Positions 7,259 to 21,348 of a stretch of 57,259 bases of DNA are shown here, piece after piece; the stretch's first letter is position 1, and every line of letters starts with the position of its first letter. A program made the position numbers and the translations under genes. The DNA comes from a virus. The DNA lies in the IMG/VR virus record IMGVR_UViG_3300022074_000044, positions 1-57,259 of that record; one strand, 5' to 3'. The notes under the pieces are model-generated. The model saw only the letters and a program-made list of their open reading frames with translations, searched no databases and was not told the DNA's origin.

Positions 7259-7921
7259 TCACATAAAAAATACCTGTGCCAGTCTGGGATATTCCTTAAA
7301 CATTGACCTGTTTAGGATAGCTCCATGAGTATGACGGCCTTCATATAATACCATTCTATTATATTTCATCTCACTTGTCCACTTTATGTCTTTTTTGATG
7401 TTGTAACCATTACCGTAGGGGTGATCTTCTATAAATTTATAGAAATCTGTGCCTCCATTACACTCATCTGGTTTGTTCAAATATACTAATGCAGCCCACT
7501 TAGTTTCCATATCATCTTTGTGGTGAGTATAACAAAATATATCTTTATTAAACTTTTCATTTATATCCTCATGTGTCGTATGGTTGACCATGAATTTCAT
7601 ATTGTCCCACCTATATTGGAACATTCCTTCAGAATATTCTATATTTTGCCACTCTTCATGTTGGCAGAGTTTGGTGAATACTGGTCGAAGATTGTCAATC
7701 ATCTCTTGATTTTCTTCTACCACTCTTGACCCTACAAGTCCACCACAATATTCTTTATCTGTTTTCAAATCACATGATAGAGCATAGTCTCTTATCTCAT
7801 CAGGATTTTTATAGAAGTCATCAATTACGAATACTTTTCGCCAACAATAACCAGCATCATTCCATCTAGAATGATCATAAACCCTGTATACCAAAGGATC
7901 TATAGAATTTATTTCAAACAT
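7259..7921 (-). CDS. DUF6445-like 2-oxoglutarate/Fe(II) oxygenase
   Basis: This 220-residue protein matches the pattern of DUF6445 phage/bacterial oxygenases. YTHHKD (131-136) gives the H-x-D ligands, followed by WAALVYLN and GGTDFYKF, the segment NRMVLYEGRHTHG with distal His (197 or 199), and R213 in PRLAQVFF. It is the first gene of the tailoring operon, 18 bases before the glycosyltransferase and just after an intrinsic terminator, so its transcription must start in the short gap after 7988 or read through the terminator. Substrate unknown. It is not closely similar to the other two oxygenases by eye, so these are probably three distinct activities. Confidence 0.75.
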   Translation of the reverse strand: MFEINSIDPLVYRVYDHSRWNDAGYCWRKVFVIDDFYKNPDEIRDYALSCDLKTDKEYCGGLVGSRVVEENQEMIDNLRPVFTKLCQHEEWQNIEYSEGMFQYRWDNMKFMVNHTTHEDINEKFNKDIFCYTHHKDDMETKWAALVYLNKPDECNGGTDFYKFIEDHPYGNGYNIKKDIKWTSEMKYNRMVLYEGRHTHGAILNRSMFKEYPRLAQVFFM

Positions 7922-7934
7922 AACCCCAGATAAT

Positions 7935-7960
7935 AAAAAAGATCCCCATAAGAGGATCTT
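7935..7960 (-). terminator. Intrinsic terminator after the chaperone-like gene
   Basis: Read on the minus strand, AAGATCCTC and GGGGATCTT pair with a TTAT loop and are followed by six T. It lies 28 bases past the stop of the 7988-8773 gene and before the tailoring operon, separating structural from tailoring genes. Confidence 0.85.
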
Positions 7961-7987: not shown

Positions 7988-8773
7988 TTACGCTGCGTTA
8001 GGTGGCATCCATGATTCTGCCTCTGTTGCATCTGCGTCTGGCTGTTTTGGTGGATCAGTGAAGTTAGGTTCAGCTGGGAACATTAAGTCAGCAAAGTTAG
8101 GGTGAACTCCAGCAGCTTGCATTTTGCTTGGAAGATCTCTTAACTGTTGACGATATGTTTTCCACTGATCTTTAAGTGAATCAGGCATATCTTCTGCAAT
8201 CTGACCATCACTATTAGAAAGAACATTGTTTCTATGAGCTCTAACGTGATCCCATGTTTTGTCTAGGTCAACACCATTTAACTTTTCTTTTGGTGTGAAT
8301 TCTTTTATAGAAATGTCATCAGGGCCTGCACTGCCTGGATTTGCAACTGTGATACTCTCGTAGTTGTAAATGTCATCTGGGAAGAGTGTTGAAGAATATG
8401 AGAATCTGTCATATCCATCAGAAGTTAGATCTGGAGATCCAGCATGGAATACATCACTTCCAGCACCTCTGTCTTCTTCCTTCTCGTTAACAACTGGGCC
8501 TCTGAGTTGACAGATGAGTGTGTGAAGATTTGATCTAGCACAGTCTACTTCGTACCACTGTACAACGTCTAGTGGCTTGGGACGACCATCTGCAATGTCA
8601 TCTTCTGTGAGAGGACCATAAAGTTCTTTTCCATCTGCACCAATTTGTAGATAGATTTTGTCTGGACCATCATAAGTTTGGTCTCTATACTTTCCATCAC
8701 TAAATGAGTGATCTGTTAGAAAGTCATTAGGTAATGACAGTTGCCATCCCTGTTCGATAATTTTAGTTGCCAT
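7988..8773 (-). CDS. Tail-fibre/tail assembly chaperone-like protein
   Basis: This 261-residue protein carries at about 173-216 the pattern of the phage tail assembly chaperone domain (PF16778 type): W-x3-R-x2-RN-x2-L, then SD, a DMPDSL stretch, W-x2-YRQQLRDLP. The N-terminal 160 residues are not recognised; the C-terminus is Pro/Asp-rich. It has its own late promoter (TATAAATA at 8807-8814) and terminator, directly after the cysteine-rich adhesin-like triplet. This mirrors the adhesin-plus-chaperone pairing seen at the end of tail fibre loci, so it probably helps fold or attach those proteins. It could alternatively be a virion component. Confidence 0.6.
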   Translation of the reverse strand: MATKIIEQGWQLSLPNDFLTDHSFSDGKYRDQTYDGPDKIYLQIGADGKELYGPLTEDDIADGRPKPLDVVQWYEVDCARSNLHTLICQLRGPVVNEKEEDRGAGSDVFHAGSPDLTSDGYDRFSYSSTLFPDDIYNYESITVANPGSAGPDDISIKEFTPKEKLNGVDLDKTWDHVRAHRNNVLSNSDGQIAEDMPDSLKDQWKTYRQQLRDLPSKMQAAGVHPNFADLMFPAEPNFTDPPKQPDADATEAESWMPPNAA

Positions 8774-8861: not shown

Positions 8862-9650
8862 TTAGACGTATGTGATCTTAACAAGTCCAGATCCACCTTG
8901 TCCGCCTTGTCCACAACATCTACCACAGTAGTTACTGTTAGCACCTTGTCCACCGTGTCCGTATGGAACTGTCCAACAACCACAACGCATCCAACACTCT
9001 CTTTGTCCGTAGGAAACACCAAGAGTTCCGATGAATGGAGCACCTGTTGGTAATCCTTCGTTATAGAAGCAGTGACAGTTAAATCCGTCAGGTCTGTATG
9101 ACTCACCACCGTGGTTGCCCATTCCGAAGTCTCCTCCGTGAGCGCCAGGTTGCATACAACAAGTCTCGAATTCTGAGTAACAGTTTGCAGACCAGTCACC
9201 AGTTGCACAACCTCTAGGACCACCTAAGGCACAGAAGTTAGAGAGGTTGTATCCGTTTACATAGGAGTTACATCCGCAACACCCTGTACACTCTCTAGAA
9301 CAACAACGGTAAACACCAGCAGCACATACAGTGTATGAACATCCGCCAGTCGTTGAAATAGTTTTTGTATTATAATATCCACCACCAGCACCGTGCCAGT
9401 TTTGACATCTGTTACATGAACATGCACCGTGACCATTTCCTCCAGCACCCCATATTTCCCAAGTAATTCTTGTTACTCCAGTGGGAACTTGCCAGTTGCA
9501 ACAACAGCCAGGTGTGCAGTAACATGGATGACCATATACCCATTTTACGCACCAGTTAGAGAAAGATCCACTCTGAACCGCAGACGAAGGTATCGTCGTG
9601 TCAGTGATCTGAGTGTTTTCTATTCTTTTGTAACTCGAATAATTTGCCAT
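8862..9650 (-). CDS. Cysteine/glycine-rich adhesin-like protein, copy 3
   Basis: A 262-residue protein with about 30 cysteines. A ~30-residue variable N-terminus leads into a body resembling the glycine-rich tail-fibre domain (a VPTGV strand, WGAGGNG turn, GGQGGSGLVKITYV end). Fixed cysteine blocks are CTPGCCCNW, ACSCNRC, YRCCSREC-GC-GC, CHC, ECWMRCGCW and YCGRCCGQGG. No signal peptide or membrane segment is present. The start is supported by GGGAAG eight bases upstream of ATG, nine bases after the previous gene's stop. It is probably a virion tip/adhesin protein; metal binding or disulfide locking are alternatives for the cysteines. Last gene before the terminator at 8814-8839. Confidence 0.7.
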   Translation of the reverse strand: MANYSSYKRIENTQITDTTIPSSAVQSGSFSNWCVKWVYGHPCYCTPGCCCNWQVPTGVTRITWEIWGAGGNGHGACSCNRCQNWHGAGGGYYNTKTISTTGGCSYTVCAAGVYRCCSRECTGCCGCNSYVNGYNLSNFCALGGPRGCATGDWSANCYSEFETCCMQPGAHGGDFGMGNHGGESYRPDGFNCHCFYNEGLPTGAPFIGTLGVSYGQRECWMRCGCWTVPYGHGGQGANSNYCGRCCGQGGQGGSGLVKITYV

Positions 9651-9658
9651 TGCTTCCC

Positions 9659-10453
9659 TTAGAAGTAAGTAATTTTAACTAGACCACCGCCACCAGTACC
9701 ACCTTGTCCACAACATCTACCACAATATGTAGTCATTGCGTTCTGTCCGCCGTGTCCATAAGGAACAATCCAGCAACCACAACGTACCCAACATTCTCTG
9801 ATAGACTGAGTGACTTGTGTACCAATCAAAGGTGCAGAGCCAGGTCTGTGACCATAGTGGTAACAGTGACACCAACCTCTGTAAGTATCATGTCTAGATG
9901 CGTTCCACACACCAGCATGATCTCCCATTCCAAAGTCTCCGTTGTTTGAGTTTGGACCTAAACAACAAGTATTAACTGATTGACAAGAGTTTGACCAACT
10001 TGGGTTGGCGTTTGCTCTACATCCACCGATAGCACAGAAGTTTGATAGGTTATATCCGTTCACATAAGATGAACAACCTGTGCAACCATAACATTCTCTA
10101 GAAAGACATCTATAAACACCAGCAGCACAAATACTGTATCCACAACCACCATTGGTTGTAATCATCTTGGAGTTATAGTATCCTCCACCAGAACTTGAGT
10201 AGTGTTGACATCTGTTACATGAACATGCACCAGTACCGTTTCCACCAGCACCCCAAGCCTGAATCCACATGTTCTGAACCCCTGTTGGGACTGACCAGTT
10301 ACAACAGCAACCAGCAGAACAACGACACATAATACCGAAAACCCATTTAACACCGTAGGTACAGTTCGGTGATTGACTGAAACTCGATGCCGATAAGACA
10401 TTCGATTCTAGTTGATCTCCGTGAACTTTTTTATATGATGAATAATTAGCCAT
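9659..10453 (-). CDS. Cysteine/glycine-rich adhesin-like protein, copy 2
   Basis: The 264-residue middle paralogue has about 28 cysteines. It keeps GCCCNW, ACSCNRC, YRC-SREC-GC-GC, SYVNGYNLSNFC, CHC, ECWVRCGCW and YCGRCCGQGG but has lost or moved some: YRCL replaces YRCC, and IMCRCSAG replaces HPCYCTPG. The segment ~175-215 is rich in His, Tyr and Arg and differs from both sisters. The end GGGGLVKITYF is as in glycine-rich tail-fibre domains. Fourteen bases separate it from copy 1 and eight from copy 3, so it is co-transcribed. Its role is probably receptor contact at the tail periphery; this is inferred from the domain type and neighbours. Confidence 0.7.
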   Translation of the reverse strand: MANYSSYKKVHGDQLESNVLSASSFSQSPNCTYGVKWVFGIMCRCSAGCCCNWSVPTGVQNMWIQAWGAGGNGTGACSCNRCQHYSSSGGGYYNSKMITTNGGCGYSICAAGVYRCLSRECYGCTGCSSYVNGYNLSNFCAIGGCRANANPSWSNSCQSVNTCCLGPNSNNGDFGMGDHAGVWNASRHDTYRGWCHCYHYGHRPGSAPLIGTQVTQSIRECWVRCGCWIVPYGHGGQNAMTTYCGRCCGQGGTGGGGLVKITYF

Positions 10454-10467
10454 TTTTTTTTAAATAC

Positions 10468-11253
10468 CTAGACGTAAGTGATTCTTACAACACCAGAGCC
10501 GCCTTGACCGCCCTGACCGCAACAACGACCACAATATGTAGTCATCGCACCTTGACCACCTGTTGCATAAGGAGCAGTCCAACAACCACATCTCATCCAA
10601 CACTGTTCCAAGAGGTTTTCAACACCATTCGTTGACAAGAACGGAGCACCTGATGACATTGTGTTTGCAACCGCACCAGTACAGTGACAGTTCCAGTGAC
10701 CTGACCAACCTTTTTGGTGAGGAGCCATTGCAAAGTCTCCACCCCATGTTCCAGGCGATGCACAACACCAGTTAGTTGAACTACATCTAATAGACCAGTC
10801 AGGGTTTGCACAACCTCTTGCACCACCGTGAGCACAGAAGTTACTTAAGTTGTAACCATTAACATATGAATTACATCCATTACATCCGTTACACTCTCTA
10901 GAACAACAACGGTAAACACCACCAGCGCATACAGTATATGAACAACCAGCAGTCGTACTGATTGTTTTAGTATTATATGCACCACCAGAAGCACCTCTGT
11001 AGTGATGGCATCTGTTACATGAACATGCACCATGTCCGTTACCCCCAGCACCCCAGACTTCGAGAGTTAATTTCTCAACTCCAGAAGGGACTTGCCAGTT
11101 GCAACAGCATCCAGGCGTACAGTAACATGGATGACCGTAGAACATCTTGACACAATAGCGAGGTGTCACCCCAGCTTCTAGCTTGTCGGGGTGAATATCA
11201 CCTGACGCTATTTGGTCAGATCTTACTTTTCGATATGATCTATAATTGGCCAT
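10468..11253 (-). CDS. Cysteine/glycine-rich adhesin-like protein, copy 1
   Basis: The 261-residue first paralogue of the triplet has about 29 cysteines. It shares HPCYCTPGCCCNWQVP, WGAGGNGHGACSCNRC, VYRCCSREC, SYVNGYNLSNFC, CHC, QCWMRCGCW and YCGRCCGQGG with copy 3. The N-terminal ~30 residues are polar and probably join it to the fibre or to another subunit. It follows the 1484-residue fibre gene by 54 bases. That gap holds no late-promoter box that I can see, so it is probably read from 16696 through the fibre genes. The cysteine density is far above other phage fibres I know, and disulfide or metal cross-linking is inferred. Confidence 0.7.
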   Translation of the reverse strand: MANYRSYRKVRSDQIASGDIHPDKLEAGVTPRYCVKMFYGHPCYCTPGCCCNWQVPSGVEKLTLEVWGAGGNGHGACSCNRCHHYRGASGGAYNTKTISTTAGCSYTVCAGGVYRCCSRECNGCNGCNSYVNGYNLSNFCAHGGARGCANPDWSIRCSSTNWCCASPGTWGGDFAMAPHQKGWSGHWNCHCTGAVANTMSSGAPFLSTNGVENLLEQCWMRCGCWTAPYATGGQGAMTTYCGRCCGQGGQGGSGVVRITYV

Positions 11254-11307: not shown

Positions 11308-14300
11308 TTAGATGGAGAAGATTCTCCAACCGTATGTTGAACCAGAGTATACAAGACTAAACGCAGCACCCTCTGTGTTAACAGTTAGGTTAGCAGTGTC
11401 ACCTTGGATTGGTCTACCATTCCTTGAAACGACTAGTGCGTTAGAGTCAAATGTCTTAGCAACGTCATAGAATGTAATTGTTGCACCTGTGTTAGGAGAT
11501 GCAGGGAGTGTTGCAGTTACCTGTCCACCACCAGTGTTAACGAAGTAGTGTTCTCCAGCATTAGGACTGAAGTTAGATGAAACTGTACTGTATGAAGTAA
11601 CACCAGGCTGAATCCACTGAGTTCCATCATAGTACTCAAGAGCACCGAGGTCTGTGTTGAATCTTAAACAACCAGTGTTGAATTCATCGTCAATGCCGCC
11701 AGGTCTTTGAGCGGTTGTACCTACAGGAGGTGTCATCGCCTTAGTACCCATTGAACCACGAGTTACGAATCCCTTAACAGCAAATTCAGTAGGACACGCA
11801 CCGTTGGAGTTACCAGCAAGTGCAGGGTCAGAGGAGAATTCAGAGATCGCCTCACCGACCTGACCTCCAAGAGAACCAAGTCTCAATTCTGTCAAACCAG
11901 ATAGGTTGAACGCAGAAGCATCCAATGTCGCACGACCAGTCAACTGGTCAACGGAGAAGAAGTCTCCAACTCTGAAGTTACCACCTTGGTCGGTTGATAC
12001 GAAGAACACCTTACCAGGCCCGAATACGTTAGTCTCGTTACCTTGAATAACGTTTGCCAAATTAACATTTGGATAACCAGTTTCTGTTTTGTTACCAGTA
12101 CCAACTGCGAGGAAGTCATGTCCTGTTAGTCTTGCCTGTGAGAACAGTGTTCTGATTGTAATTGTAGATCCATAAGAAACGTTGTCCGCATCTATGTTTC
12201 TAGTATCCCATGTACCAGTTGCTTTCTCTGGTGAGATCGATAACGTAGCACGATTATAGAATATCGTTGCGATACCAGCCGTCGATCCAGCCTGCCATTC
12301 ATAGTAGGTCTTAGCAACAGCGACGTTCGTTATAGTGTTAATAATGAAGAATCTATCAGTTGCACCATAGAGTGTGGTTGAGAATCCGATAGCATCACCG
12401 ACCAGTAGGGTTCCAGAAGTCTGGTCAATTTCCATAATTGTTCCTTTCTGTCCTGTGACTGAACTTGCGGCCGCTCCGACTGCAATCGAACCAATACCAG
12501 AACTCTGTTCTGCACCAGCACCGAACCAGATGGTCTCACCATCTACGAAACCAGTGGTTCCGATTCCAGCATTACCGTATCCAGACTGATACTTGAAGTA
12601 AATCTTATCAGCAGCGATTTGGTCATTCAAGAACCATGCAGTTGCCTTGGATGTAGTACCGAACATTGTAGCACCGATTGCAAGTGTTCCGCCCTTAGTT
12701 ACACCTTGAACTGTCATCATGTCACCGAAGAGTTTTGCTTCTCTTGGTACTTCATCAGTTGAGAAACCAGATGAGATAACACCGTAGTCTCCATAAGAGT
12801 TGTTTCCACCAACACCCCTGATTCTTGATCCACCACCTGAGTAGTAACCCCACTTAGCGTAGTATGTGAAACAGGAAACGATTTCAGCGATTGCACCCTT
12901 ATCAAGAATGTAACCAGCACCATCAGATGCAACGTGCGTAAACGCATCGAACACCATTGATTTCGCACCGACATCGTGTACTCCACCATCGATGAATACA
13001 CCGACACCACCACCACCGAATCTTGCAGGGATTGCCTCTGTAGCAGGGTCTGAGAAACAAGTACAATCCTTAACGTAAGGTGACTTGTTATTAATTGGTG
13101 AGTCTGGGTTCAATGAGATGAATACACCAGCAGCAGTTGTACCAATACCAGTTCTTAGGTTTGTATTGTCAAGAACTAGAGGAGCGTTAGGATCATAGTA
13201 GAATCCTTCCATTCCTTTCATGGAGATCGCCTGAATTGTTGTTGCATCAGACATCTTGAACATATGACTCCTGTTATTAGGAGTTGTTGAATCATCAGAT
13301 GTTCCAATTTTAGGTAGAACCTGTGAACCTCTAAGTGCGTTACCAACGATAGAAGTGAAAGGAGGAACTGTAACTGGTAACTGTTCGTAGAACTGAGACG
13401 CAGATAGTTTCAAGATAGCAGGTGTTAGGTCTGTAACTGTACCGCCTTCAACGTATGTGTGGTTGATAGATGAGATACCAACGTTAACCTTGAATGTCTG
13501 TGTATCAGGAACTTCAAGAACCTCATAGTAAGACTTAGATACCTTATCGGGATACTTGGTTGTTGTTAAACCAACGAACGCAGTACCACCAGAAACATAG
13601 AGGTAATCAGTAGTTGAAACACCTACGTTTAGAGTGATTGAGTTAGAGTCGGGTACACCTTGAACAACGAACTCATAAGTACCTTGAGTATGTACAGCAG
13701 GGAACTTACCAGTGATTGTTTGGTCATCAGATGCAGTACCAACGTTAATTGTAATTGTGTTGGTTGTAGTTGATGTAATATTAAGAGCAGTGTTATATGC
13801 AGGGTCTGGGTTTCCGTCTCCAGCAACAGCACGAGGATATGGGTGATCAGTTGTATAACCGTCCATTGAACAACGGAATGTCATACCTTCTGTTTCTAGT
13901 CTTACAGATGTACCAACTGTTAGTGAGTGAGCACCGATTGTGCAAACCATGTCACCAGTGTTCTCGTTATAAGAAACAGCAGTTGGTTCATGGTTAACGA
14001 TTGGAGAAGATCCAACGTTTATAGTGAATGTATCAGTTGTTGTACCTGTAATTGCTAATTGTTGTCCTACAGCAGGGTCTTTTCCAGCACGAGGATAAGT
14101 CTTCTGTGTGGCGTTGTTGTTCATTGTACATGTGAACGTAAACGCATCGTTGGAAATAGTAACTTTATCAGAAGTTGATAGACTATGACCAGCAAGGGTC
14201 ATTACGAAGTTACCATTTGAAGGATCGTATGTCGCACTTGTTGGAGTTATACCTGATCCACCAACAACTTGAACACCGTTTGTTGCACAACTGTTGAATG

Positions 14301-15762
14301 TGTGAACGTAGTCACCACCAGATTGGATAGCGTTAGCTAATGCACTCTTGAATGTATGAGCGAATCTTGCAGAACCTGTGTACTGAACACTTAAGTTTCT
14401 GATTCTAACAGTCGCACCGATTCCAATTTCGGGAGCACCACCAAGACCGATAGCAGTTATAGTTGCAAGTCCAACAGCCTTGTTGTATGTCATACCCAAG
14501 ACGTTGAATACATTACCTCCAGATAGACACTCAAACTGAATATCTTGTAACTGAACGAATGTACCAGTGTTTAATAGACCGTGACCAGCCGCAGTAACCG
14601 TTGCCACACCAGTGGAAGCGGTATACACCATATCAGTGATCGAAGTTTGTGGACGTGCAGCAATACAAGCCCTCTTAATAGTCTTAAACGCCAAGTTAGG
14701 TGCAAGACCATTGTTTGTGTCAACTCCATCCTCAGAGTCAACGTAGTAAATTCTAGTCTGGTTTCCTACAATCTCGTAACCAGGCATTCCGTTTGCCTGA
14801 ACTGCAAGAGCGTAACCTGTAGATCCAATACCAATTCTTACGTTACCTGAGTTGTAACTTAGTAAGTCACCCTTAGTGTTAAGAGCAGCGGATGAATCTC
14901 CTGATGCAAGTACTTCCCAGAATGTTCCGATTCCAGCAGTAGGAATAACGTTCTGATGAGAGTTACCAACAGAAACATATGAATCTGAACCGTATCTTGC
15001 AACATGGCCTGGATGATAGTTGAAGGTAGTGGAGAAGCCACCTTTAAAATCAAATCCTTTAACAAGTAAATCCCATACTTGTTCACCATTGTATGCTTCG
15101 GGGAAGATAGATCCAACACCAATTTGGAGTGGAGAAACGTTAGTTGTAACACCTATTGTGTGACGGTAAATGTTACCACCATACTGGATGAGGTCGCCTC
15201 TGTAGTATGAACCTTCTGTATATGTTACTGCAGCACCAGCAAGACCGTCAGATAAGATACTCCATTTTGCAGAAGGGTCTGTAGAAACACCCAAATACTG
15301 TGGAGGTTGGAATCCAGCAAGTGAAGTTGTTAGAGCAACGTAAGATGAACCATTGTAGTTAACAACGTCACCTGATTGGTATTCATTGTTCTGATCCCAA
15401 GTTCCTTCGTTTTGAAATCCTTTTACATACTCAGTAACTTTCGTCTCGTCGATGAAAGTTCCTTCTGATGTATGTGCAGTTGTTACTCTATAAACAACGT
15501 TACCGTATTTTACAATATCGTTGATACGATAGTAAACTCCAGCAGCCCATTGTCCTTTTTGTTCTAGACCTTCTATGTGAACATTCCAGTTTCCAAGGTC
15601 GTTAGAATAAAAGTCACTGGCATTTGCGGTGGATGTGTGGTTTGTGATCGCCACATAAGTATTGCCACCAAACTTAACGATGTCGTCAATTAAGTAGCTT
15701 TTGGATACTGCCCAGTCACCTGTCCAGTTGAATTTTACTCTTCCAAGTCTAAACTCAGCCAT
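11308..15762 (-). CDS. Large tail-fibre protein with carbohydrate-binding-like modules
   Basis: This 1484-residue virion protein begins with about five ~50-residue repeats (residues 3-285) of the form W-x-YxxGDxVxYxGxxY, like chitin-binding type 3 (CBM5/12) modules. After these comes YYVDSEDGVDTNNG, typical of pectate-lyase-like beta-helix fibres. Two YPR modules (about 540-680) are shared with the 2997-residue protein at 32870-41863. A glycine-rich region around 870-980 looks like a right-handed beta-helix. It ends in a small C-terminal domain (YYDGTQWIQPG). It probably contacts the host surface polysaccharide; no catalytic residues can be assigned. ATG is preceded by GGAG at good spacing. 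It is followed by the cysteine-rich triplet, so the two may form one appendage. Confidence 0.8.
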   Translation of the reverse strand: MAEFRLGRVKFNWTGDWAVSKSYLIDDIVKFGGNTYVAITNHTSTANASDFYSNDLGNWNVHIEGLEQKGQWAAGVYYRINDIVKYGNVVYRVTTAHTSEGTFIDETKVTEYVKGFQNEGTWDQNNEYQSGDVVNYNGSSYVALTTSLAGFQPPQYLGVSTDPSAKWSILSDGLAGAAVTYTEGSYYRGDLIQYGGNIYRHTIGVTTNVSPLQIGVGSIFPEAYNGEQVWDLLVKGFDFKGGFSTTFNYHPGHVARYGSDSYVSVGNSHQNVIPTAGIGTFWEVLASGDSSAALNTKGDLLSYNSGNVRIGIGSTGYALAVQANGMPGYEIVGNQTRIYYVDSEDGVDTNNGLAPNLAFKTIKRACIAARPQTSITDMVYTASTGVATVTAAGHGLLNTGTFVQLQDIQFECLSGGNVFNVLGMTYNKAVGLATITAIGLGGAPEIGIGATVRIRNLSVQYTGSARFAHTFKSALANAIQSGGDYVHTFNSCATNGVQVVGGSGITPTSATYDPSNGNFVMTLAGHSLSTSDKVTISNDAFTFTCTMNNNATQKTYPRAGKDPAVGQQLAITGTTTDTFTINVGSSPIVNHEPTAVSYNENTGDMVCTIGAHSLTVGTSVRLETEGMTFRCSMDGYTTDHPYPRAVAGDGNPDPAYNTALNITSTTTNTITINVGTASDDQTITGKFPAVHTQGTYEFVVQGVPDSNSITLNVGVSTTDYLYVSGGTAFVGLTTTKYPDKVSKSYYEVLEVPDTQTFKVNVGISSINHTYVEGGTVTDLTPAILKLSASQFYEQLPVTVPPFTSIVGNALRGSQVLPKIGTSDDSTTPNNRSHMFKMSDATTIQAISMKGMEGFYYDPNAPLVLDNTNLRTGIGTTAAGVFISLNPDSPINNKSPYVKDCTCFSDPATEAIPARFGGGGVGVFIDGGVHDVGAKSMVFDAFTHVASDGAGYILDKGAIAEIVSCFTYYAKWGYYSGGGSRIRGVGGNNSYGDYGVISSGFSTDEVPREAKLFGDMMTVQGVTKGGTLAIGATMFGTTSKATAWFLNDQIAADKIYFKYQSGYGNAGIGTTGFVDGETIWFGAGAEQSSGIGSIAVGAAASSVTGQKGTIMEIDQTSGTLLVGDAIGFSTTLYGATDRFFIINTITNVAVAKTYYEWQAGSTAGIATIFYNRATLSISPEKATGTWDTRNIDADNVSYGSTITIRTLFSQARLTGHDFLAVGTGNKTETGYPNVNLANVIQGNETNVFGPGKVFFVSTDQGGNFRVGDFFSVDQLTGRATLDASAFNLSGLTELRLGSLGGQVGEAISEFSSDPALAGNSNGACPTEFAVKGFVTRGSMGTKAMTPPVGTTAQRPGGIDDEFNTGCLRFNTDLGALEYYDGTQWIQPGVTSYSTVSSNFSPNAGEHYFVNTGGGQVTATLPASPNTGATITFYDVAKTFDSNALVVSRNGRPIQGDTANLTVNTEGAAFSLVYSGSTYGWRIFSI

Positions 15763-16707: not shown

Positions 16708-19700
16708 TTAAATAATGACAACATAGGTTCTACCTTCCTCAATGACTGCATACTCTGTTTGAGCAATACCGAAGGAGTTAACCTGACCAATACCAACGTA
16801 AGTTGCACGAGCTTGAGATTCCTTAGCTCCTGCAAGTCCCTTGAAGAATCCTTGAGTCGTGTAATTGCCTTTCGTGACTGATTCGAGAGCAGATCCACTG
16901 GTCTTGTAAAGAACTGCAACACCAATACCAATCGAAGGTGTGTAATCGACGAATGGATGTACAAGAGAAGTATTCGATATTGTAAATGTTCCTGATGGAA
17001 CGAAGTCTTGGAATACTTGGAAGTATCTGGTCGCTGCATCTCCAAATATAGTTGTGATACCAGATGTGCCTGGATCTCTGTCGTCTCCATAGTATCCGTA
17101 TACTTGATTGAGAGCGGTAAGTGCAGAAGCGCCTTTTGTGTCGAAGAGGACTGTACCCTCGACGGAATCGGCTGTAAATCTGACAACTGATGCACCAGAG
17201 AATGTAGCAATACCAACTCCAATCTCTCTGAAGAATCCTTTCTCGTCGGCAGTTCCAGATATAGTAACATTTCCAATACCAGTGTATGCTGGTGTGTAGT
17301 CGATATCTGGATGTGTAAGTTCTCCAGATATTGTGAATGTACCAGATGGAACGAAGTCTTGGAAGACTGCCAATGTTCTTGTGTCTGCATCTCCACTGAT
17401 TCTTGTAAGAATTGCACTTGCAGCAGATGGTTCGACTGTTGCCTCTGCAGCAGATCCAAGTGCAAAGAGAGAACCAGATCCAGTAGCTGACAGACGAACA
17501 CCAGATAGAACAACGTTGTCTCTTCTGAGTGTAATAGTTCCAGATCCATCGAACTCTCGTAGGCGGAAGGCGACACTTTCTCCAGATAGTGTAAGTGTTG
17601 CAGTATTCTCTGGAGTCTGAGCGATGAATGATTCTTCTGCCGTTCCGTTGAATATTGATGTACCAGCAACAAGTTCTGCACTTGTCTTGGTCTCCGATAT
17701 ACCACCGATTGCGAATAGAGATCCACCACCGACTTCGGAGAATGTTGTTGCTTCGTCTTGACCAGCACCACTGTAAGTGAATGTGCCAGATCCGACTTCT
17801 GGAACGACGAATTTCTCGATTGTGAGAATACCACCTTCCTGACGAACTGTAAATCCACCAGATGTGCCTGGATCGTTGTCGTCTCCATAGTATCCAAAGA
17901 CTTGAACTGGCCTTGCTTCTGCTCCAGTTGTCTGGAAGTCGAATAGGAGAGATCCAGCACCAAACTCGGTAGCGGGAACAAATCTTTCCTTCGCACCGAA
18001 TTCGACTCCTTCGAGATCTCCTTCCTCGTCTGGGCCTCCAACACCGTTTCCAGCAGTACCAATACCAAGAATGTAGATAACACCGTGAGTTGATATAGGT
18101 GCGTTTGTTCTGGATATTGAACGACCATCGAGTTTGAGGACAGGACCAACAGATGGATATTTCGGAATGAACCTTGTGGTAACAATGCCAGGATCTCCGT
18201 ATTCCCCTCCAGAACTTCCAGGCTTGAGTGTAAGTCCAGTCTCGATACCAATGTTCCTTTCGATACCATAATGAGGTGTGTAGTCGATATCTGGATGCTG
18301 TAGATCTCCGATAAGACGTAGAACAGCCTTCTCTGATTGTGAAGCGTAAGTAGCTTTGAGATCTGTGTATCCACCACCGTAGATGTGTAGGTAAGTTCCC
18401 TCTGGAGGATCGAAGCTGGACTTGACAACTGCACTGCCTCTGAATGTCTGAATACCAACAGGAGAAATGTGATCGATAACTCTTGCGTATGTTGATATTC
18501 CAATACCCCTTGTAAGAGGTAGAGTTCCAGATCCAACAAAGTCTCTTGTGCGACTGTAAGTGGTAATTCCAGATGTCTCGAATAGAACAGTTCCTTCTGG
18601 AGTCTGAGCAATGTATCTTTCTTTTGCACCACTAACGAAGTCGAATAGAGATGTTGTACTACTTGCAACAGCAACTTTCTCTCCGCCAGTTCCAGAAATG
18701 GTGATTGTACCAGAACCACGGTAGAATGGGAAGAATATTGGAACCCCTGATGTGATTCCTCCAGTGAAGTTGACACTTCCATATGGGAATATAGCTTCCT
18801 GTGGAGTGGTTTCATCGACCCAACCATAATCAGTGAATCCTCTATTAACATTCTGTTGAGTGAATCCGTTATCCCAAGGATATGTTCTAGTGTATGGACG
18901 ACCACCGCCAGAAGATACTCCAATAATTCCGTAATCTTCTCCGATTTCATTGGAACTAAAGTTGATGTTATATTGATTAGTTTTATCGAATGAAGGTACA
19001 AGACCAGTACCACTAACTGCCTCGTCGTATGTAAGACCACCAGTATTTTCATTATCAAAGGTGATTGCACCATCATCAAGAGACTCGACACTTGGCATAC
19101 CAGCTCCTTGCTGGTTGAATCCAAATCCTTGAGCAACATCAAGTTCACTAATGAGACCGTAATCTTCGTTCTCTGTTCCCCTAAAGATAGAGAATTGATT
19201 GTAGGAATCTGTATTCTTCTCAAAGATATCCTTACCACTGAAGAATAATGTTCCACCAAACTCATCTTCTGGGTGTTGGATAACTCGTGCATATGTCTGA
19301 CCCTCTTCTCTGCCAGTTGTAAGAGTAACATCGAGAGTGGATGATATATGTGGAGCAAAGTTGACGTTTGCAGCACCAGTAAGTGACTGATAAGAACCAA
19401 CGAGGTATTCCTTGACAGAAGCCTCTACCGCACCACCAAACTTGAATAGTGAACCTGATCCCTCTGGTATGAATGGAGTAATAGACTCATTACCAGTGCC
19501 AAGGATACTGAATTGACCTTCTTCACCGAATACTGTGTGTTGTGGAGCCTGACTGAACCAGTTTGCACCGAAGATGTTGATGCCAGCCTTGTATGTGGCA
19601 ATACCAGTAATACCAGAGGACTCGTATTGAATTGCAGCTGCAACATCGAGATCTTCTGAAAGTAGGAAGGTTGCCGTTCCTGTAACTCCAACAGTTTGTT

Positions 19701-21348
19701 TGGTAAATGAAGTTTCTCCAAGAGAGAATGTAATTTCTCTGTTGGGATAATGTTGACCACCAATCTGAGCGTAGTTGAAGTTTGGAAGTAAGAATCCCCA
19801 GTTCTCTGCTGACTTGGGTATAGTCTCGTCGTTTGTATTGATGACACCCCAATCTTCGTAAGACTGAGTTGGAGTGGCAGTAATAAGACCCCAATCGACT
19901 TCTTCTGTTTTTTGATCTCCAAGAGGTGATACCCAAGAAGGAGTGTAAACAGGAATACCCTGTTGCATCTCTCCAGAGATATCGAATAGGTTTGTATTCT
20001 CGTAATCCTTCGCAACTTGAATATTGGTTGCAGCACCACTAACATGTAAGGTAACTGTCTGTTCGTCACCCTGTTTAACAAGTTTGATGTCAGATACAGA
20101 ACCAGAAGGTCTGATAAGAGCCTTCCTAGTTGGAGGTATAGAAACTGCAGCATCCGAACCAGTTCCAGATATATCAAAGAGAACTGTACTGATGATACCA
20201 GCAGGGACGAATGATTCGTTTGCACTACCAGATGCAGTAATCGTATCACCGACACCGAATATTGTACTCTGTGGAGCCTGACTGAAGAAGTTGGTTCCAG
20301 AGAATGTTCCTGTACCAGATCCAGAGTATGCAAAGAGTGATTCTTCTGCCGCAGTGCCTTCTTTCTTGAATGTACCAGCACCAGCATATCCCCTGACGAT
20401 AGCATCTCTACCACCAACAAATGTTGACTGATACTCGTCAAGGAATATTCCACCTTGTAATTGTTGTTCTATTACACCGTAATCTTCAGCAGATGTAGGT
20501 GTGTCTAATATACTTCCGTAACTTACAAATTCAACCTGATCTTCGTCAGAGAATGATCTCTCCTTCGCAAGAGGATCTGTGATGGTCTCGTCAAATGTGA
20601 CATTGAGATCATCGAAGGACGCACCTTCCCTAACTGTAATTGTTCCGTTATCTTCTTTCTCGAATACGTCAGACTCAGATCTGGCGTAGTTGTATATGAC
20701 TTTCTCAACGTCAAACAGCCTGGTATCTCCACCCTTCGCTCTAAATGCGTTTTTAATTACAGGGAGATATGCCTGATCATAAGGTGTTGTAGTTGTACCA
20801 CTTAGAGTTACACTACCACTACCATTATAAGGATAAACTTGGTCTAGATCGGTTGCAGATACGCCTGACTTGGCAATCGTACCAACACCATCATAATTTC
20901 CTCTAGATATAGATTCTTCTGCGGTCCCAGATGGGATGAAGATGACAGCCCCTGCCGCTCCGAGATCTGGTATAACAATCCTTTCGAGACCAGAACCGAT
21001 CTCGTGAATTGTACCAGTACCAACCCAAGGAGTTACTGCTGACTCTAGTGCAGAGTCATTTACATCAAATAGTACGGTATTTGCGTTCTCTGGAATCCAT
21101 TGAGATCTAGATCTACCTAGTGCATCTCTTCCATCTACTACATTTATTGGGCCAAACGGTACTATATCTGCTGTAGCGGTGATAAGTCCGTGGTCATTTA
21201 CAAAGAACCAATCTCCATCTCTTTCTGGTTCTACATGTTGATTTATGTCGCCATAGTCAATATTCTCGCTAGATCCCACGGTGATATCTCCACCGTTAAA
21301 TGTAGTGAATACATCTATCTTTGCATTGTCGTAGGTGTATACGGTCAA
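16708..21348 (-). CDS. Large repetitive virion protein (1546 aa)
   Basis: This protein of 1546 residues is built from irregular Gly/Ser/Thr-rich repeats. Short D-(Y/W)-G-x-I elements recur in the first half (IDYGDI, EDYGVI, VDWGLI, EDYGLI, EDYGII). A GSGT(I/F)T(I/L)SG beta-strand unit recurs throughout. Longer duplications near the C-terminus include HPDIDYTP and YYGDD-DPGTSG. No enzyme motif is visible; a fibrous tail protein is likely. The start is TTG, because no ATG or GTG exists between it and the upstream in-frame stop, with only a weak GGGA upstream. Another frame on the same strand is also open for long stretches (16695-19400, 19425-20453), which I attribute to repeat composition. Confidence 0.8.
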   Translation of the reverse strand: MTVYTYDNAKIDVFTTFNGGDITVGSSENIDYGDINQHVEPERDGDWFFVNDHGLITATADIVPFGPINVVDGRDALGRSRSQWIPENANTVLFDVNDSALESAVTPWVGTGTIHEIGSGLERIVIPDLGAAGAVIFIPSGTAEESISRGNYDGVGTIAKSGVSATDLDQVYPYNGSGSVTLSGTTTTPYDQAYLPVIKNAFRAKGGDTRLFDVEKVIYNYARSESDVFEKEDNGTITVREGASFDDLNVTFDETITDPLAKERSFSDEDQVEFVSYGSILDTPTSAEDYGVIEQQLQGGIFLDEYQSTFVGGRDAIVRGYAGAGTFKKEGTAAEESLFAYSGSGTGTFSGTNFFSQAPQSTIFGVGDTITASGSANESFVPAGIISTVLFDISGTGSDAAVSIPPTRKALIRPSGSVSDIKLVKQGDEQTVTLHVSGAATNIQVAKDYENTNLFDISGEMQQGIPVYTPSWVSPLGDQKTEEVDWGLITATPTQSYEDWGVINTNDETIPKSAENWGFLLPNFNYAQIGGQHYPNREITFSLGETSFTKQTVGVTGTATFLLSEDLDVAAAIQYESSGITGIATYKAGINIFGANWFSQAPQHTVFGEEGQFSILGTGNESITPFIPEGSGSLFKFGGAVEASVKEYLVGSYQSLTGAANVNFAPHISSTLDVTLTTGREEGQTYARVIQHPEDEFGGTLFFSGKDIFEKNTDSYNQFSIFRGTENEDYGLISELDVAQGFGFNQQGAGMPSVESLDDGAITFDNENTGGLTYDEAVSGTGLVPSFDKTNQYNINFSSNEIGEDYGIIGVSSGGGRPYTRTYPWDNGFTQQNVNRGFTDYGWVDETTPQEAIFPYGSVNFTGGITSGVPIFFPFYRGSGTITISGTGGEKVAVASSTTSLFDFVSGAKERYIAQTPEGTVLFETSGITTYSRTRDFVGSGTLPLTRGIGISTYARVIDHISPVGIQTFRGSAVVKSSFDPPEGTYLHIYGGGYTDLKATYASQSEKAVLRLIGDLQHPDIDYTPHYGIERNIGIETGLTLKPGSSGGEYGDPGIVTTRFIPKYPSVGPVLKLDGRSISRTNAPISTHGVIYILGIGTAGNGVGGPDEEGDLEGVEFGAKERFVPATEFGAGSLLFDFQTTGAEARPVQVFGYYGDDNDPGTSGGFTVRQEGGILTIEKFVVPEVGSGTFTYSGAGQDEATTFSEVGGGSLFAIGGISETKTSAELVAGTSIFNGTAEESFIAQTPENTATLTLSGESVAFRLREFDGSGTITLRRDNVVLSGVRLSATGSGSLFALGSAAEATVEPSAASAILTRISGDADTRTLAVFQDFVPSGTFTISGELTHPDIDYTPAYTGIGNVTISGTADEKGFFREIGVGIATFSGASVVRFTADSVEGTVLFDTKGASALTALNQVYGYYGDDRDPGTSGITTIFGDAATRYFQVFQDFVPSGTFTISNTSLVHPFVDYTPSIGIGVAVLYKTSGSALESVTKGNYTTQGFFKGLAGAKESQARATYVGIGQVNSFGIAQTEYAVIEEGRTYVVII

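Follow-up and report, generated by a model that had tools for sequence, protein, structure and literature searches.

What do three consecutive viral genes beside a tail-fibre gene build, when each encodes a protein with about 11% cysteine, and why are there three of them? Cysteine is normally scarce in phage virion proteins, and phage fibre tips are usually homotrimers. The question is raised by a marine cyanobacterial virus, IMG/VR record IMGVR_UViG_3300022074_000044, whose entire stretch of 57,259 nt is called the window here and supplies the coordinates used below. The three products are most likely a cysteine-stapled, three-gene version of the known TNF-like/glycine-rich fibre tip. Our literature search found no paper on cysteine-rich cyanophage tail fibres, nor on such a cysteine-stapled three-gene tip.

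The gene triplet and its cysteine load

The genes lie on the minus strand and are read from slot 1 to slot 3, starting with the one at 10468-11253. This first putative tip protein (P0003) has 261 aa and 29 cysteines (11.1%). It is followed by slot 2 (P0002, 9659-10453), with 264 aa and 28 cysteines (10.6%), and by slot 3 (P0001, 8862-9650), with 262 aa and 30 cysteines (11.5%), both also of putative tip function. The open reading frames thus bear out the preliminary description, which listed three tandem proteins of 261-264 residues with 28-30 cysteines, about 11%, leaving the strand unstated; the motifs that it quoted (CCC, CSCNRC, RCGCW, and GRCCG) are present in all three. Each protein also contains 16-18% glycine. 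The remaining genes of the window have a mean cysteine content of 0.63% (107/17,103 residues), the structural proteins adjoining the triplet contain 0-0.8%, and the binomial probability of at least 28 cysteines in 262 residues is 2e-25. The sharpest contrast within the window is a 1546-aa open reading frame with a TTG start at 16708-21348, which has no cysteine at all. The cysteine-rich triplet family is both unusual and real, and since dN/dS is 0.12-0.21 (measured against Synechococcus phage S-SSM7 and locus L018), its genes are under purifying selection.

All three proteins match phrog_4205 over their full length (2e-63, 5e-57, and 1e-68 for slots 1, 2, and 3), a family whose function is listed as unknown. 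Together with phrog_35878, also matched over its full length, it corresponds to the cysteine-rich family described here (s/c type and P-SSM2 type, respectively), and the PHROG library attaches no function to either. The Pfam family PF21722 (Gly_rich_2; curated cut-off 24.3 bits) is reached by P0003 at 34.9 bits, while P0001 stays below the cut-off at 21.8 bits and P0002 has no match; half of the family members (65/130) match it at E <=0.001.

Relatives and copy number

Scanning viral contigs yielded 78 loci; the window and two phages bring this type, called s type, to 81 loci. Every one (81/81) has exactly three tandem copies in a fixed order, although in L004 the third copy is cut by the sequence end, leaving 80 complete triplets, 66 of them distinct. 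In a tree of 189 sequences the slot labels need 5 changes, where the minimum is 2 and shuffled labels need 89.9. The copies are thus, as judged by sequence, largely orthologous by position, but slot monophyly is imperfect in the s type, where the clade L068-L074 is mixed.

Two further types exist. In the second (S-CAM1, S-CAM3, and IMG/VR loci), the genes again come as a triplet, encoding proteins of about 300-330 aa with 24-38 cysteines; the exceptions are two loci truncated by a contig end. The triplet of this second type forms a clade of its own, within which every slot is monophyletic. The third (P-SSM2, AG-345-F15, and IMG/VR loci) keeps two copies, of about 350-360 aa and 27-36 cysteines, separated by a gene for a 225-aa protein whose match to phrog_9740 (E 0.017) ties it weakly, if at all, to the chaperone family. 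The arrangement of two cysteine-rich copies around the 225-aa gene, instead of three followed by a chaperone, recurs at L084:8716-11582, L114, and L116-L122. Searches of the complete genomes revealed no additional strong copy, and the "other cysteine-rich" open reading frames noticed in the loci were rejected, as they look like out-of-frame readings. In the deep tree, whose long branches call for caution, each type groups by itself, which would mean that two lineages arrived at the triplet state, or had it homogenised, independently of each other.

Predicted fold

An AlphaFold2 model of slot 1 built with 130 relatives (mean pLDDT 82.1, pTM 0.78) shows a TNF-like sandwich with glycine-rich inserts. 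According to the domain limits that we read off the DSSP string, the sandwich strands occupy residues 34-67, 93-111, 129-141, and 255-260, and the inserts (68-92, 112-128, and 142-254) hold 20 of the 29 cysteines. The best solved match is the fibre of cyanophage Pam3 (7ypx; Foldseek E 2e-7; VIA Z 17.1 over 216 aligned residues at an rmsd of 6.7), Pam3 fibre matches scoring Z 17.1 and 16.4. Next comes the Bxb1 tail tip, with Z 11.9 and an rmsd of 3.4 over 172 residues, and after it the TNF-like/glycine-rich region of ALK/LTK (Z about 8-10). A sequence-only PDB search with a profile found no relative. With good confidence, the triplet proteins can be assigned the TNF-like/glycine-rich fibre-tip fold on the strength of this model, and the fibre-like frame seen in the preliminary description gains support from the match to the Pam3 tip.

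Pam3 gp24 is a trimer with TNF-like and glycine-rich receptor-binding domains; its glycine-rich end is the proposed receptor binder, and it is folded by the adjacent chaperone gp25 (PMC9608196). The triplet proteins share with it (PDB 7YPX/7YFW) the TNF-like domain, here a predicted one, the projecting glycine-rich domain, the variable end, the adjacent chaperone gene, and a cyanophage origin. However, Pam3 uses one gene and a homotrimer whose tip is 39% glycine, whereas the triplet consists of three paralogues whose inserts have about 21% glycine and 13% cysteine, and sequence identity between the two is about 17%. A long N-terminal shaft helix is another feature of the gp24 kind, but residues 1-33 of the slot 1 model are of low confidence and form only short helices.

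Variable segments

Collecting homologues and mapping their variability, as proposed at the outset, yielded the 81 s-type loci and a conservation and entropy profile of 111 sequences. Entropy averages 2.2-2.4 bits over residues 11-30; most of 151-220 has about 1.9-2.45 bits, and the remainder of the protein about 0.4-1.5. The two variable segments of the preliminary description therefore exist, but its proposal that both serve recognition would suit one of them better than the other. In the model, segment 149-216 is part of a glycine-rich insert, a place in keeping with a recognition tip. For residues ~10-33, docking or partner choice is more likely than recognition, because they belong to the lead-in, which is modelled with low confidence.

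Slot identity is strongest in these same regions, the N-terminal 33 residues and 149-216. The core shows mild homogenisation within genomes: paralogues that share a genome resemble each other slightly more than expected, so some gene conversion among the copies is likely. Between the three slots, divergence in the variable regions is correlated (r 0.86-0.91), and none of 2016 locus pairs is discordant. Co-divergence of the variable loops is equally strong with the chaperone, so that simple linkage could also explain the correlation.

One mixed tip or three

The fixed number, the fixed order, the orthology of slots, and the co-divergence without swapping point to a single obligate assembly. That the triplet forms one hetero-oligomer is, on these grounds, somewhat the better bet. 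Our leading, still tentative reading goes further: the three proteins would be subunits of one tail-fibre-tip adhesin with disulfide-stapled loops, most likely a 1:1:1 heterotrimer. In the assembly that we infer, the short variable N-terminal lead-in of each chain would serve docking and partner choice, and the TNF-like beta-sandwiches would pack around a three-fold axis. The glycine-rich inserts would point outwards, and the variable loops at their ends would presumably touch the cyanobacterial surface and bind a receptor there. In this triplet family, cysteine takes the place of a large part of the insert glycine, and it would form disulfides, chiefly intrachain ones, stapling the extended loops. 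Finally, the adjoining chaperone would fold the tip and register it at the long fibre's end.

A precedent for such a mixed trimer comes from the virophage DSLV2, in which three consecutive paralogous tail genes fall into clades by position and their products co-purify as an approximately 1:1:1 heterotrimer (PMC12724248). The likeness lies in the exactly three consecutive paralogues and in the position clades, which are nearly clean in the s type; here it concerns the genes alone. The DSLV2 proteins are of an unrelated family, gp37-like with a collar domain (PF07484) and located on a virophage capsid, and the paper makes no mention of cysteine or disulfides (PMC12724248).

The strongest competitor, which we nevertheless hold to be unlikely, is that each copy forms its own homotrimer, giving three different cysteine-stapled tips for three receptors or three virion positions, much as in the preliminary description but with a fixed set in place of an interchangeable one. 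The closest structural relative, Pam3 gp24, is indeed a homotrimer, and the places where the copies differ most, the N-terminus and 149-216, could equip each copy for its own docking site or receptor. Moreover, two copies suffice in the P-SSM2 type, so three is not universal; this is the main difficulty for the reading as one assembly, although the P-SSM2-type pair could be either a 2:1 trimer or two homotrimers. Against separate tips, copy number is fixed per type and is never one or four, no copy is seen lost or out of order, none has its variable loops replaced on its own, and one fibre gene and one chaperone gene serve the set. It is solely by evolutionary comparison that we would choose between hetero- and homotrimers.

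In its boldest form, which we regard as speculative, the mixed-tip reading would have the fibre capped by a C1q-like asymmetric heterotrimer with an exceptionally dense disulfide network in its receptor-binding loops, made after or despite the reducing cytoplasm and reached separately in two cyanophage lineages. If true, many marine cyanophages would, with their fixed trio of paralogues at 11% cysteine, have another way of making a receptor-binding head that is stable and can diversify. One would then have to ask how a phage built in the cyanobacterial cytoplasm acquires dozens of disulfides (or metal sites). The reading also provides a functional hypothesis for two PHROG families listed as unknown, and it is directly testable in the isolated phages S-SSM7, S-CAM1, S-CAM3, and P-SSM2.

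Disulfides or metal

In the preliminary description, cysteines not conserved across homologues were to count against its reading. The opposite is found: no residue type is better conserved among the relatives than cysteine (mean 0.90, with glycine at 0.85), and 20 cysteine columns are at least 95% conserved in the 111 sequences. Only 8 of the 23 commonly kept columns reach at least 80% in S-CAM-type sequences, yet the total there is still 24-38, and across types cysteine is, at the level of the alignments, conserved in amount more than in site. Changes at positions 104 and 134 look like an exchange of partners: the two are never both cysteine, and there are 6 same-branch swaps where 0.3 are expected (0/20,000 simulations). 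Pair-like co-occurrence of cysteines is found in slots 1 and 3 (34/148) in parallel to slot 2 (31/145), mainly at clade level, and apart from 104/134 the pair signals are mostly single-clade events. An odd number of cysteines occurs in 98/189 proteins. The inserts contain 21% glycine and 13% cysteine, and a cysteine-poor glycine-rich protein of P-SSM2 contains 42% and 0.4%, respectively. This protein (L115:1673-3130), encoded two genes away from the terminase gene gp17, offers a contrast within the same genome.

The partner-like swaps, the amount of cysteine kept while sites move, and the partial replacement of glycine by cysteine lead us to infer disulfide stapling. The cysteines probably are mostly disulfides, and stapling would take over part of the role of polyglycine packing. 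Assembly in the cytoplasm takes place under reducing conditions, which counts against this reading. A search for a phage-encoded sulfhydryl oxidase (PF04777) gave no match, but the control search was blank as well; thioredoxin PF00085 had no match in six relatives (with a positive control). Glutaredoxins occur in 6/6 relatives, 1-3 in each, and are ordinary in such phages. Virion disulfides have a precedent in the contractile Agrobacterium phage Milano, which has many (PMC10811340). There, cysteine amounts to 2.1% of the structural proteins, with links in sheath, tube, and baseplate, whereas the candidate disulfides of the triplet would be concentrated in three small proteins with about 11%.

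Alternatively, the cysteines might bind a structural metal (Zn, Fe, or Fe-S), giving a metal-knotted tip able to assemble in the reducing cytoplasm. We consider this improbable, although the conserved spacings CxCxxC, CxC, and CxxCxxC (also CxxC) would suit it. Histidine makes up 7.9% of the replacements at majority-cysteine columns compared with 3.0% in the background, a modest enrichment, and in a sequence-only PDB search with P0003, a LIM zinc domain weakly matched residues 87-136 at E 0.027, a similarity that is probably cysteine-driven. However, cysteines change by single swaps and in pairs instead of in sets of four, a pattern that also speaks against a metallothionein or zinc-cluster identity, and the low retention of columns in S-CAM-type sequences despite their high totals argues the same way. 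As far as a term search of its text goes, the Pam3 paper gives neither cysteines nor metal a part in the fold (PMC9608196). Where the preliminary description left metal clusters and disulfides side by side, the pattern of changes (the pairs and the 104/134 swap) thus indirectly favours disulfides, and metals less so.

Location and neighbourhood

On the coding strand, the order is long tail fibre, slots 1, 2, and 3, probable chaperone, terminator-like hairpin, and a 2OG-Fe(II)-oxygenase-like gene. The fibre gene (11308-15762, minus strand; 1484 aa, 11 cysteines) lies directly upstream of the triplet. Its C-terminal domain (aa 1387-1480, phrog_31104) matches a separate 108-aa protein of S-CAM3, encoded just before the triplet (L086:6533-6859), and may be an adaptor that holds the tip. 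The probable tail-fibre assembly chaperone (7988-8773, minus strand; 261 aa, 2 cysteines) matches PF16778 (Phage_tail_APC) at 39 bits, above the cut-off of 26.6, and also phrog_9740 and phrog_4912 ("tail fiber assembly"). Its homologues adjoin the triplet in nearly all s-type loci. A fibre-assembly chaperone next door recalls Pam3, but a fold search of the PDB with the predicted chaperone model found no match, and kinship to gp25 is thus unproven.

This setting bears on whether the triplet proteins belong to the tip at all. That they form another accessory structure (e.g., baseplate or neck whiskers), or stay outside the virion, seems to us very improbable. S-SSM7 annotates its triplet genes as hypothetical proteins, and the virion proteomics sets in the comparison paper are those of S-SM1, S-PM2, and Syn9, both of which leave room for this reading. 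But the predicted fold matches a fibre tip, in both s- and c-type phages the genes are flanked by those for the fibre and its chaperone, and the variable loops fall in the glycine-rich insert. As for interchangeable adhesin cassettes, the "set of alternative adhesins" of the preliminary description, they find no support and were rejected: in the 81 s-type loci copy number is fixed, the slots are largely orthologous by position, and no swap of a copy between lineages is seen.

The terminator-like hairpin (7939-7960, minus strand) just after the chaperone gene suggests, weakly, that the fibre, triplet, and chaperone genes form one transcription unit; 5 such sites were found in the scanned region where 2.5 are expected, a weak signal. 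The 2OG-Fe(II)-oxygenase-like gene (DUF6445; 7259-7921) directly follows the chaperone gene, and a similar gene follows in Sf-FS3. Beyond it come a weakly GT9-like gene and a carbamoyltransferase gene, the latter recognised by synteny with S-SSM7. The same gene order occurs in Synechococcus phages S-SSM7 (Kyanoviridae), whose DNA is 84% identical across the triplet, and Sf-FS3. The S-SSM7 triplet corresponds to SSSM7_114-116 and its chaperone to SSSM7_118. In S-SSM7, the annotated gene SSSM7_117 (L001:16347-16676) overlaps slot 3 and is probably a spurious call.
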